A stretch of DNA of 64,000 nucleotides from an uncultured Devosia sp. Its GTDB lineage: Bacteria > Pseudomonadota > Alphaproteobacteria > Rhizobiales > Devosiaceae. Location of the stretch: positions 124,001 to 188,000 of the forward strand of contig NZ_CAJXJS010000001.1 of assembly GCF_913055165.1 (NCBI RefSeq), in the 5' to 3' direction. Of this stretch, positions 20,177 to 23,504 are shown in pieces (within the stretch, counting starts at the first letter, position 1; the number at the start of each line of letters is the position of its first letter). The position numbers and the translations under genes were made by a program. A model generated the notes under the pieces. It searched no databases and was not told the origin of the DNA. It saw only the letters and a list, made by a program, of their open reading frames with translations.

Positions 20177-21154
20177 ATGAAAAAGTTTATCGGAGGTCTC
20201 GTTGCAGGCGCCTTGGCGCTTTCGGCCAGCACCGCCTTGGCGCAGGACGCGCTGACCCTGCAATTGAAGTGGGTCACGCAAGCCCAGTTCGCCGGCTATC
20301 TGGTCGCTGAATCCAAGGGCTTTTATGACGAGGAAAATCTCGACGTCACCATCCTGCCCGGCGGCCCCAATATCGCCCCCGAACAGGTGATCGCCGGCGG
20401 TGGCGCCGATATCATCGTCACCTGGATGGCCGCCGGCATGGCCGCCCGTGAATCGGGTGTGCCCCTGGTCAATATCGCCCAGCCCTTCAAGCGCTCGGGC
20501 CTGATGATGATCTGCCCCGAGGAAACCGGCATCACCGAAGTCGCCGATTTCCCGGGCCATACCCTGGGCGTCTGGTTCTTTGGCAATGAATATCCCTTCT
20601 TTGCCTGGATGAACAAGGAAGGCATCCCCACCGATGGCTCGGACGGCGGCGTCACGGTGCTGCAGCAGAGCTTTGATATCCAGCCTATGATCCAGGGCCA
20701 GGCCGACTGCATCTCGGTCATGACCTATAACGAATATGGCCAGGCGCTCGATGCCGGCTACGGCCCGGATAACCTCACCATCTTCAACTATACCGAGATG
20801 GGCAATGACCTGCTTGAAGATGGTCTCTATGTCATGGAAGACACGCTGGAGGATCCGGCCAAGGTCGACGCCTATACACGCTTTGTGAAGGCCTCGATGA
20901 AGGGCTGGGCCTATGCCCTGGAAAACCCGGAAGAAGCCGCCGAGATCGTGGTTGAAATGGACGATACCGGTGCCGCCGAATATGAGCACCAGCTCTATAT
21001 GACCGGCGAGGTTTCCAAGCTTGTCGATGCCACCGACCCGGCCCTCGACATGGATACCTATGAGCGCACGGTGCAGGCCCTGCTCGACCAGGAAATCATC
21101 ACGGCCGAACCGGAAGGCGCCTATACCAGCGTCGTCACCGACGCCCTGAAGTAA
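20177..21154 (+). CDS. ABC substrate-binding protein, NMT1/THI5-like
   Basis: Periplasmic binding protein of 325 residues. A signal peptide (MKKFIGGLVAGALALSASTALAQD, cut after LAQ or ALA) is followed by LQLKWVTQAQFAGYLVAESKGFY, the conserved start of the NMT1/THI5-like fold that binds pyrimidines or thiamine precursors. AAAGGGAAAAGGGAA precedes the ATG. A frame upstream is open back to 18995 but that part overlaps the permease and is not coding. It ends the operon, with a hairpin after its stop. Substrate is inferred to be uracil, thymine, dihydropyrimidine or hydantoin. Confidence 0.88.
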   Translation: MKKFIGGLVAGALALSASTALAQDALTLQLKWVTQAQFAGYLVAESKGFYDEENLDVTILPGGPNIAPEQVIAGGGADIIVTWMAAGMAARESGVPLVNIAQPFKRSGLMMICPEETGITEVADFPGHTLGVWFFGNEYPFFAWMNKEGIPTDGSDGGVTVLQQSFDIQPMIQGQADCISVMTYNEYGQALDAGYGPDNLTIFNYTEMGNDLLEDGLYVMEDTLEDPAKVDAYTRFVKASMKGWAYALENPEEAAEIVVEMDDTGAAEYEHQLYMTGEVSKLVDATDPALDMDTYERTVQALLDQEIITAEPEGAYTSVVTDALK

Positions 21155-21178
21155 GCAATGCTTACCGAGTGAATTGAG

Positions 21179-21203
21179 CGGGCGGGGAGCAATCCTCGCC
21201 CGC
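21179..21203 (+). terminator. terminator hairpin after the pyrimidine operon
   Basis: GCGGGCGGGG, a short loop, CCTCGCCCGC: a 10-bp stem with one G-U pair, 25 bases after the binding-protein stop. There is no clear T run, so termination efficiency is uncertain. Confidence 0.55.
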
Positions 21204-21288
21204 TTCGCTGTGCTGGCCCGCTGGAACAAAACCACCCCCCTCACAGTTGTTTGACCACTCGCGTCTTTCAACAAGAGGGTTTTCCCCC

Positions 21289-21363
21289 ATGAACTCCATC
21301 ATCTATCTCGTCGGCCTTGTCGTGATTGTCATGGCTATCCTGTCCTTCATCGGCCTGGCTTGA
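21289..21363 (+). CDS. 24-residue membrane microprotein
   Basis: An ORF too short for most gene finders: it begins MNSIIYLVGLVVIVMAIL and ends SFIGLA, essentially one transmembrane helix. AAGAGGG lies about 11 bases upstream of the ATG. The gene sits 22 bases before a polytopic membrane protein gene on the same strand, and a second 24-residue helix protein follows that gene. Strong hydrophobic periodicity, ribosome site and placement support a real gene. Function unknown. Confidence 0.65.
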   Translation: MNSIIYLVGLVVIVMAILSFIGLA

Positions 21364-21385
21364 GCCAGAACGGGAGGACACAGAC

Positions 21386-22282
21386 ATGAGCATGGACACA
21401 CCACCCGGCGTTGCCGTCGTTGAAACAGAAATCACCAGGGACCAGGCCGAACGCAGCTATGTCGATTGGCCGGCCATCTTCGCCGGGATCGTGTTGGCCT
21501 CGGCCATCTCGCTGGTACTGATCAGCTTCGGCTCGGCCATTGGCCTCAATTTCATCGACTTCAATGCCCGTGAGGGCGCCCCGGCCATTCTGATCGGCAT
21601 TGGTGCGGCAAGCTGGTTCCTCTGGGTCCAGATCTCCTCCTTCATGGCCGGCGGCTATCTCACGGGTCGCCTGCGGGCGCGCAATTTCGACGCCACCGAG
21701 GACGAAAGCGATATGCGTGACGGCGCTCATGGCCTGCTGGTCTGGGGCGGTGCCATGATCATCGGTGCCATTCTGGCCGTTGGTGGCATTGGCGCAGTGG
21801 GCAGTGCCGTGGGCACCACCATTGCTACCGCCACCACGGCCGCTTCCAATGTCTCGGAAGGTGCAGCGGACGGGCTCGACCCCAATGCCTATTTCATCGA
21901 TACCCTGTTCCGCGCCGATACCCCGGTCGATCCCGGCGTGGCCCGCGACGAAGCCGGCCGCATCTTTGCCCAGGCCGCTCTGGGTGACGGCACGGTTGCC
22001 GCCGAGGACCGCACCTATCTCGCCACTATAGTGGCCGCCAATACCGGCCTGCCGCCTGCCGAGGCCGAAGCGCGTGTCGATAGCGTCATCGCCAATGTCG
22101 AAGCGGCGCGTGTCGAAGCGGTGGAAGCAGCGCGCATTGCCCGCAACACGGCCATCCTTGCAGCATTCCTGCTGGCGGCCTCCTCGCTGGTCTCGGCCAT
22201 CGGCGCCTATTGGGCTGCACAGAAGGGTGGCAATCACCGCGACAACAACACCGTCTTTGCTGACGTCTTCCGTCGGTTCTAG
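21386..22282 (+). CDS. polytopic membrane protein, often labelled PhnA-like
   Basis: 298 residues. A short acidic N-terminus precedes YVDWPAIFAGIVLASAISLVL (helix 1), a second pair of helices (about 68-90, 112-145), a soluble central part (about 150-255) with alternating acidic and Ala residues, and a C-terminal helix near 262-285. Related proteins in rhizobia are often named PhnA-like without functional support. GGGAGGA lies eight bases before the ATG at 21386. It is flanked by two single-helix microproteins, suggesting a small membrane complex (inference). Confidence 0.75.
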   Translation: MSMDTPPGVAVVETEITRDQAERSYVDWPAIFAGIVLASAISLVLISFGSAIGLNFIDFNAREGAPAILIGIGAASWFLWVQISSFMAGGYLTGRLRARNFDATEDESDMRDGAHGLLVWGGAMIIGAILAVGGIGAVGSAVGTTIATATTAASNVSEGAADGLDPNAYFIDTLFRADTPVDPGVARDEAGRIFAQAALGDGTVAAEDRTYLATIVAANTGLPPAEAEARVDSVIANVEAARVEAVEAARIARNTAILAAFLLAASSLVSAIGAYWAAQKGGNHRDNNTVFADVFRRF

Positions 22283-22306
22283 GCGCGCAGGAAAAGGAGA
22301 CTAGCG

Positions 22307-22381
22307 ATGTTCAAGGCACTTGCCCTCTGGCTGCTCGGTGTGCCGATCTGGCTTATCATCATCATCTTCCTGGTCTTCTGA
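22307..22381 (+). CDS. 24-residue membrane microprotein, second
   Basis: Begins MFKALALWLLGVPIWLIIII and ends FLVF: one predicted helix with a Gly-Val-Pro kink. AAAAGGAGA is placed ideally upstream of the ATG. A strong intrinsic terminator begins 13 bases after the stop, which marks it as the last gene of the unit. I recall similar very short proteins in other proteobacteria; function unknown. Confidence 0.7.
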   Translation: MFKALALWLLGVPIWLIIIIFLVF

Positions 22382-22393
22382 CCGGAAGGCCAA

Positions 22394-22424
22394 AAAAGCG
22401 GGGAGCGATCCCCGCTTTTCTTTT
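22394..22424 (+). terminator. intrinsic terminator after the microprotein operon
   Basis: AAAAGCGGGG, AGCGAT loop, CCCCGCTTTT, then CTTTT: a perfect 10-bp stem with T-rich tail. The A/T flanks make it usable in both directions, serving the facing TetR gene as well. Confidence 0.92.
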
Positions 22425-22441
22425 GCGGGTGAGGATGGTGG

Positions 22442-23026
22442 TCACTTCTTCAGCCCACGGATGAGCGCCTTCATCACCTTGCGATAGTCATTGATCTCGT
22501 CTGCAGGCGCCAGCGACGCCCGGTCGAACATGGCGCTGAGCAGATGCGCCAGCGGCAGGGGCGGAAGGTCCTTGATGGCGCCCGCTTCAATGGCTGTACC
22601 GACCCCCTCAACCAGCGTGCGCAGGCCATGCCGCGCATCGATCTCATCGACCGCCGCGCGCCCCAGCACGGCCGGCGCGTCCACGATCAGCAGGCGGCGG
22701 CGCCCTTCGTCCTGCATGGCGGCCAGGAACCCCTCGCCACCCCGGATCAGCGCCTTGACCGGGCCGGGCTCATCTTCGCCGCCCTCGGCCGCCTGGTGGA
22801 TGGTCAGCGCCAACAGCGCGTGCTCCTCTTCCACCACGGCGGCAAACAGCGCCTGCTTGTCCGCAAAATGATGGTAGAGCGCGCCACGCGTCACCCCGGC
22901 TGCCTTGACGATTTCCGGCGTGCTGGTCGCTGCATAACCCTTTTGCGCAAACAGCGTTCGAGCGGCTGCGACCAGGGCCCGGCGCGTGGCAGTCCGACGA
23001 TCCTCCTGACGTCTTCTGACATCCAT
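22442..23026 (-). CDS. TetR-family transcriptional regulator
   Basis: 194 residues with the TetR DNA-binding domain at the N-terminus ([41 protein letters not shown]) and a divergent all-helical ligand domain. It is divergent from a VOC-protein gene 76 bases away. A 17-base near-perfect palindrome in that gap is a likely shared operator, so the pair probably forms a repressor-target unit. The ligand is unknown. Confidence 0.88.
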
Positions 23027-23053
23027 CTTTCATACATCCTGCATCTATCAATC

Positions 23054-23070
23054 AAACATGCTGCGTGTTT
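23054..23070. promoter_or_regulatory. probable TetR operator
   Basis: AAACATGC-T-GCGTGTTT: an 8-bp inverted repeat around one base with a single mismatch, in the gap between the divergent TetR and VOC genes. Size and position fit a TetR dimer site. Confidence 0.65.
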
Positions 23071-23102
23071 GTAATGATAAAGCCAATTCAGGGAGACGAT
23101 CA

Positions 23103-23504
23103 ATGTTCAACACGCTTTATCCTCTGCTCCATGTCCGGGATGTGGCCGCGACCAGCCGCTTCTATCAGGAGCATTTCGGCTTCGAGCCGGTCTTTGAGAG
23201 CGATTGGTATGTGCAATTACGTGGTGGTGCCACGGGCAATGAGCTGGCCGTGATCGCCTTTGATCATGAGACCATCCCGCCCCAGGGACGCCATCCCACC
23301 GCCAATCTGATCCTCAGCTTCGAGGTGGAAGACGCCGCGGCAGACGCAGGGCGGCTCGAACAGGCCGGTGTTTCCATCGTCCAGCCGCTGCGCGACGAGG
23401 TGTTCGGCCAGCGCCATTTCATCGCCGCCGATCCCAATGGCATCCTGCTCGATGTCATCACGCCCATCGAACCCGACCCGGACTGGCTCGCCGCACAGGG
23501 TTGA
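23103..23504 (+). CDS. VOC/glyoxalase-superfamily protein, TetR-linked
   Basis: 133 residues with two beta-alpha-beta-beta-beta modules: [20 protein letters not shown] starts the first and [18 protein letters not shown] the second, ending in [17 protein letters not shown]. This resembles bleomycin-resistance/glyoxalase-like dimeric proteins. GGGAGACGATCA precedes the ATG at 23103. Pairing with a divergent TetR gene suggests an inducible detoxification enzyme or binding protein; substrate unknown. Confidence 0.78.

Follow-up and report, generated by a model that had tools for sequence, protein, structure and literature searches.

Introduction

KdpF and MgtS are small accessory subunits of membrane systems, and the genes of such subunits are linked to the gene of the partner. 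Association with a larger membrane protein has been reported for CydX and AcrZ as well, in the portions of the two papers available (PMC4325964, PMC7267776). According to the available part of its description, SEP6 of S. meliloti is a protein of <30 aa with a predicted transmembrane helix, which was translated when tagged, was found in the membrane pellet and is conserved in Hyphomicrobiales (PMC10117765). The published EcfG motif, as given for Sphingomonas melonis in the accessible part of the paper, is GGAAC-N17-20-GTT (PMC6599016).

In Alphaproteobacteria, many of the effectors of the general stress response have yet to be characterised. We describe two families of microproteins, SEP-A and SEP-B, both of which lacked annotation in the records examined. 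Their genes are found repeatedly behind EcfG-type promoters and next to the gene of P, a membrane protein for which searches gave no family model. With the partner, the promoter and close relatives in hand, the translation, regulation and binding of these microproteins are directly testable in non-pathogenic soil bacteria.

Results

The Locus in Devosia

The window (the whole stretch of DNA analysed, 64,000 nucleotides from an uncultured Devosia sp.) carries on its plus strand, in this order, the genes of SEP-A (21289..21363), P (21386..22282) and SEP-B (22307..22381), with a gap of 22 nt between SEP-A and P and of 24 nt between P and SEP-B. SEP-A (MNSIIYLVGLVVIVMAILSFIGLA) appears to be a single-helix membrane microprotein of 24 aa with zero charged residues; SEP-B (MFKALALWLLGVPIWLIIIIFLVF), likewise of 24 aa and with a single predicted helix, has a conserved G-x-P within that helix (LWLLGVPIW); and P is a predicted four-helix membrane protein of 298 aa. 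A sequence-only reading of this DNA had proposed two 24-residue ORFs flanking a polytopic protein, and the place and length of both ORFs were confirmed, as was the polytopic protein between them. The named loci nearest to that of the window, by identity of P, are those of Devosia indica (99%) and D. marina (96%).

A purine-rich ribosome site lies ahead of SEP-A, P and SEP-B alike, and those of the two microproteins are of the GAGGG and AGGAG types, so that the “good” ribosome sites of the sequence-only reading were found again. The mean hydropathy is 2.4 for SEP-A and 2.5 for SEP-B, a composition that points to a helix and to membrane insertion. Counting both strands, the window has 308 ATG-started ORFs of 20–32 aa, which share 262 distinct stops, and SEP-A and SEP-B are the only two of them with a mean hydropathy >1.8. 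Their equal length, which had been noted too, is true of this locus, where both have 24 aa, but is not meaningful as such, since the length of SEP-B varies: among 63 named loci it is 24 aa in 23, 25 in 31 and 26 in 8, with one outside the length filter. SEP-A has 24 aa in 74 of 75 named loci, the remaining one being outside the length filter.

Behind SEP-B, at 22394..22419 on the plus strand, folding and the hairpins of relatives place an intrinsic-terminator-like stem-loop followed by a T-rich tail. The stem has 11 pairs, and the 63-nt stretch that holds it folds at -25.9 kcal/mol (z -2.4), with 2/200 shuffles equally good; a hairpin with a T-run <=75 nt past the SEP-B stop was found in 56/59 related loci that have SEP-B downstream vs 12/295 random segments, which bears out the earlier claim that a terminator ends the unit. 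A simple terminator scan found 0 terminators and missed this stem-loop, and a sigma-70 promoter scan gave no match ahead of SEP-A.

The entire unit, including the promoter motif, occurs once more in intact form in the window genome, at 80% DNA identity (G000:C10:2492-3733; L002, L028). This copy may be a paralogue or may belong to a contaminating contig; the close relatives G009 and G011 show a single copy of the unit each.

Coding Status and Annotation

Among the named loci, pN/pS of SEP-A is 0.24 in frame vs 1.10 and 3.49 in the shifted frames (74 loci, 72 unique DNA sequences), and that of SEP-B is 0.41 in frame vs 0.89 and 2.09 in the shifted frames (62 loci, 61 unique). Judged by these ratios, both SEP-A and SEP-B evolve as protein-coding sequence under purifying selection. 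The sequence-only reading had named a synonymous-site conservation test as a check and frameshifts or stops in close relatives as the outcome that would speak against it; no such outcome was seen, SEP-A being kept in 24/24 Devosia loci (the second copy of the window genome included) and SEP-B detected in 23/24, the one miss being L024.

Neither microprotein appears in the gene tables of five records with P (the table of one other record was unusable), and SEP-A is likewise absent from the gene tables of two further records, such tables being known to be incomplete. In the 40 plasmid records listed (of 65 with a SEP-A match), no feature lies under the match. The expectation that annotation pipelines would miss these microproteins was therefore correct for the records checked. 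Catalogues of predicted small proteins may hold both SEP families as unnamed clusters. No paper on SEP-A or SEP-B was recognised among the literature entries listed, and the SEP peptide strings, sought in full text, matched no paper. The accessible parts of a Bradyrhizobium sORF paper (PMC5082802) and of the Pro-SMP finder paper (PMC10903887) held nothing recognisable as these SEPs. S. meliloti SEP6, as far as the available text describes it, may be a member of one of the two families.

An EcfG-Type Promoter

Ahead of SEP-A, at 21223..21248 on the plus strand, lies a promoter motif of the EcfG type, the type of the general stress response, consisting of GGAAC (21223-21227), 18 bases and GTT (21246-21248), which is the same as GGAAC-N17-AGTT. 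Here GGAAC starts at -66 from SEP-A, and GGAAC...GTT is found at -59 to -66 in 21/24 Devosia loci; in an aligned promoter footprint of 17 Devosia loci (one row of which, L006, is at wrong coordinates), GGAAC and GTTG are conserved and the spacer is variable. More widely, the motif starts between -85 and -45 in 49/74 named loci vs 16/2960 random anchors, and in 9/17 further Hyphomicrobiales loci with P vs 3/680 random anchors. Outside the Alphaproteobacteria it was found at 0/10 loci when measured from the SEP (random anchors 0/400), which is a weak control as the SEP is behind P there, and at 0/12 loci within 200 nt before the P match. Apart from the count before the P match, these promoter counts are of loci with a recognised SEP, which brought the named loci from 76 to 74, the further Hyphomicrobiales loci from 22 to 17 and the non-alpha loci from 12 to 10. 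At 25/74 named loci the motif is missing. Among these is a run of Devosia relatives (L163-L169), in which control may therefore differ.

The window genome encodes NepR, and next to the NepR gene are an ORF with regions 2 and 4 of sigma-70 (an ECF sigma factor) and an ORF with the PhyR sigma-like and receiver domains, all of them over cut-off. EcfG-type motifs also stand there, on the plus strand at 1763 and 2693 (L191, G000:C50); one precedes the PhyR start by 77 nt, and one precedes a DUF1328 gene, adjacent to the NepR gene, by 45 nt. In their main text, regulon tables aside, the parts seen of two papers on EcfG regulons (PMC6599016, PMC3616915) report neither these microproteins nor P.

Linkage of the Microproteins to P

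SEP-A precedes P in 75 of the 76 named loci that encode P relatives, and SEP-B is present in 63/76, downstream of P in 59 and upstream in 4. The one locus that lacks SEP-A is that of Candidatus Devosia symbiotica (L190), in which the match to P covers only 37 residues and both SEPs are missing from the matches, as though this symbiont's unit were decaying.

The sequence-only reading had suggested a search for the same triple arrangement in Hyphomicrobiales, and the SEPs indeed proved to be tied to the polytopic protein well past Devosia; that the linkage reaches beyond Hyphomicrobiales was not foreseen in that reading, nor were the EcfG-type promoter and the changes in SEP position around P. 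A profile of P matched in 70/297 Hyphomicrobiales genomes, and a neighbouring SEP on the same strand was found at 55/63 strong P loci (E up to 1.7e-25): SEP-A at 28, SEP-B at 38 and both at 11. No listed SEP neighbours P at 8/63 strong loci and at 15/15 weak ones. Anywhere in the genome, a SEP was found in 60/61 genomes that encode a strong P, vs 133/297 Hyphomicrobiales genomes overall. In these adjacency counts, extra fragments of the same P gene were omitted, and SEP matches were taken to near E 1e-3 (one SEP-B at 0.0035 was kept); the counts are slightly low because weaker SEP matches, one of them beside P in G258, were left out. Genomes within one genus are not independent of one another.

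In a sample of the phylum, P was found in 68/398 genomes, and the 29 loci taken from it (L199-L227; 13 from Hyphomicrobiales, 4 from other alphaproteobacterial orders and 12 from other classes, partly repeating genomes of the earlier counts) had a SEP at 29/29. Among the strongest P loci outside the Alphaproteobacteria (E up to 2.9e-69), SEP-B lies downstream of P at 16/16, 13-73 nt from match to match; among the weaker ones (E 5.6e-29 or worse), a neighbouring SEP-B match was found at 1/20. Relatives of P also occur in 73 plasmid records, and SEP-A or SEP-B is near P at 6/6 loci hand-picked from the 30 records listed of these 73, including those of Pandoraea and Variovorax; a Mesorhizobium terrae plasmid repeats the Devosia order A-P-B, and on a Rhodobacterales plasmid the P relative is directly preceded by SEP-A. 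A tblastn search of plasmids with a SEP-B homologue gave no match, probably an effect of the low-complexity filter. At 5/26 P loci (L037, L038, L043, L047 and L048), no SEP was found within the 1.5-kb flanks, and four of these five genomes (G203, G245, G265 and G313) have a SEP-B elsewhere. The weak P matches (G140, G219, G197, G241 and others) form a distant P-like group, with several copies in some genomes and with no neighbouring SEPs in the lists used.

The order of the genes changes between lineages. SEP-B is downstream of P in Devosia and in the other classes, whereas many Hyphomicrobiales have it upstream; Hoeflea and Pelagibacterium have SEP-A as well as SEP-B upstream of P. The genes that flank the unit fall into 25 neighbour clusters on the upstream side (n=73, the largest of 40) and 28 on the downstream side (n=72, the largest of 19); with so many clusters, the largest holding 40/73, the synteny seen in Devosia is partly inherited, yet the unit also moves.

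The Membrane Protein P

No Pfam or NCBIfam model was over cut-off for P itself. TerB (PF05099) scored 17.1 bits, below its cut-off of 24.4; this weak similarity covers a helical segment of P at about 194-254 and recurs in 17/43 relatives at E <= 0.1 (best 0.0002). The same Pfam scan of 43 relatives gave, besides TerB, ten families in 1-8 members each (E <= 0.1), and an NCBIfam scan of 29 relatives gave one match each to HpsJ (E 2e-5) and to an anti-sigma model, all of these matches being weak. A sequence search of the PDB with P had a best E of 0.17. With the structural model of P (mean pLDDT 74.6, pTM 0.57), Foldseek gave no match at E <= 0.001, the best (E 0.39) being a protein other than FtsX, and the best VIA match was FtsX, with Z 8.8 and rmsd 9.4 over 164 residues. 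An FtsX-type four-helix permease fold was considered for P, and on a model with this pTM the match was judged too weak.

The predicted long helices of P span 28-56, 67-96, 105-141 and 224-286, with further helical parts at 184-220. The protein has a conserved loop, GRLR..DATE.ESD.RDG, and a C-terminal GG.HRD; in a wide alignment of 29 sequences, W28, G34, G53, G89, R95, R97, R111, D112, G116, W120, D172, R176, D208, Y211, R230, A252, R285 and D286 are invariant. The placement of charges would put both termini on the inner side together with the RDG loop, and the segment 142-250 outside.

Microproteins Away From P

Both families also occur without P: in Hyphomicrobiales, 59/87 SEP-A and 70/108 SEP-B matches are not beside it. 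Twenty such places were hand-picked (not drawn at random) for each family, and a SEP was recognised in 15/20 of those for SEP-A and 20/20 of those for SEP-B; an EcfG-type motif stands in the same position as at the P loci at 7/15 of the recognisable SEP-A and at 15/20 SEP-B, vs about 1% of random anchors. That SEPs without P have an EcfG-type motif of their own argues for a role as stress microproteins independent of P, and their occurrence without P argues that P is not their sole partner.

At one of the places picked (L266), a P-like protein (E 3e-9) is encoded upstream of the SEP on the opposite strand. SEP-A homologues lie upstream of an MscS-type channel (L238, which was scanned, and L251, 88% identical to L238) and of a DUF1206 membrane protein (L247), so that P may be one of several membrane proteins with which SEP-A travels. 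SEP-A was also seen before a helical protein that has no confident family assignment. An unannotated SEP-A homologue (L275:3001-3072) lies between two DUF1236 genes on the S. meliloti Ak57 plasmid pSymB, with an EcfG-type motif 50 nt upstream.

Discussion

We consider it somewhat probable that the locus is a three-gene EcfG stress unit in which the SEPs are accessory or regulatory subunits of the inner membrane that bind the helices of P. Starting from what the comparison of genomes gave on linkage, coding status, promoter motif and terminator, we infer a course of events in which RNA polymerase containing EcfG would read the GGAAC...GTT promoter and transcribe SEP-A, P and SEP-B as far as the terminator. 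Both SEPs would then be translated and inserted in the inner membrane as single helices (SEP-B probably N-in, because of the K/R near its start), and these helices would bind those by which P spans the membrane. P is predicted to have four such helices, the third and fourth being separated by a putative soluble, helical segment. As its small subunits, the SEPs would have an accessory or regulatory function, with a presumed protective role in starvation, osmotic or other envelope stress.

We favour such a complex of the SEPs with P because the linkage persists across classes despite changes in order and regulation; what counts against it, in the genomes compared, is that SEPs occur away from P and that some P loci lack a SEP. 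In the main competing explanation, the SEPs act alone, on the lipid membrane itself: as stress-induced, lipid-embedded microproteins (“YohP-like”), they would alter membrane fluidity or potential, and they would be co-transcribed with P as members of a shared stress regulon. The many SEPs found away from P, often with their own EcfG-type motif in the places sampled, fit this idea, as does SEP-A upstream of an MscS-type channel and of a DUF1206 protein; in addition, E. coli YohP, of 27 aa, is reported in the accessible part of its description to change both the composition of the membrane and its potential when cells are stressed (PMC12719787). Action on the membrane alone nevertheless leaves unexplained why SEP-B is beside P at every one of the 16 strongest loci outside the Alphaproteobacteria, where the motif was found at none of 12, and we regard it as possible but unlikely.

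It could also be supposed that the SEP ORFs serve to tune the synthesis of P, as leader peptides or by translational coupling, and that their product has no function, and in the window SEP-A does lie just before P with a ribosome site of its own. SEP-B, however, follows P in Devosia and in the other classes and is therefore no leader there, and as a general account the idea was rejected on this ground; purifying selection on the amino-acid sequences of the SEPs and the presence of both families away from P also speak against it, and we give it very little credence. In size and hydrophobicity the SEPs would also suit type I toxins, or hydrophobic peptides that resemble toxins and have no partner, but Rfam gave no family match within 20400-23400 and no antitoxin RNA was recognised among known RNA families, and the linkage to P is kept across classes; this origin seems to us a shade less probable still. 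Short ORFs are common, as the 308 in the window attest, and the SEPs might in principle be chance hydrophobic ORFs or an artefact, an explanation that purifying selection and cross-class linkage refute at the comparative level and that we hold to be next to impossible.

Looking beyond the single locus, we put forward, tentatively and with rather more doubt than the unit itself, that in Proteobacteria SEP-A, SEP-B and P make up a stress complex of the inner membrane that has not been described before, the four-helix P being completed by one 24-residue subunit or by two, which are interchangeable, and that in Alphaproteobacteria both SEP families are widespread, unannotated stress effectors that work with P and with other stress membrane proteins. 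Taken by itself, the locus is a clear case in which likely real proteins of 24 residues are revealed by their linkage, not by their length or annotation.

The control of the unit resembles that of the EcfG regulon, as far as the available text of the S. melonis work describes it: the promoter in the window fits the published motif, and NepR, an ECF sigma factor and PhyR are encoded in the genome (PMC6599016). S. meliloti SEP6, in what could be seen of its description, is like the SEPs in being under 30 aa, in its predicted transmembrane helix and in its conservation in Hyphomicrobiales, a likeness by description, not by sequence (PMC10117765). YohP of E. coli is another very short, stress-linked membrane protein; it differs in that a partner operon of this kind goes unmentioned in the accessible part of the paper, the two being compared by description only (PMC12719787).

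With CydX, AcrZ, KdpF and MgtS, the SEPs share their place among the very small membrane proteins. As in CydX and AcrZ, they have <50 residues and (judging by composition) a single hydrophobic helix, and their genes are recurrently linked to that of a partner, P, with exceptions. The differences, in a comparison made by description only, are that there are two microproteins per partner here and that these change places around P, that the SEPs also occur away from P, and that P is without known function. Small subunits of membrane proteins are a known kind; what would be new in this unit is that there are two of them for the one partner P, likely under stress control.
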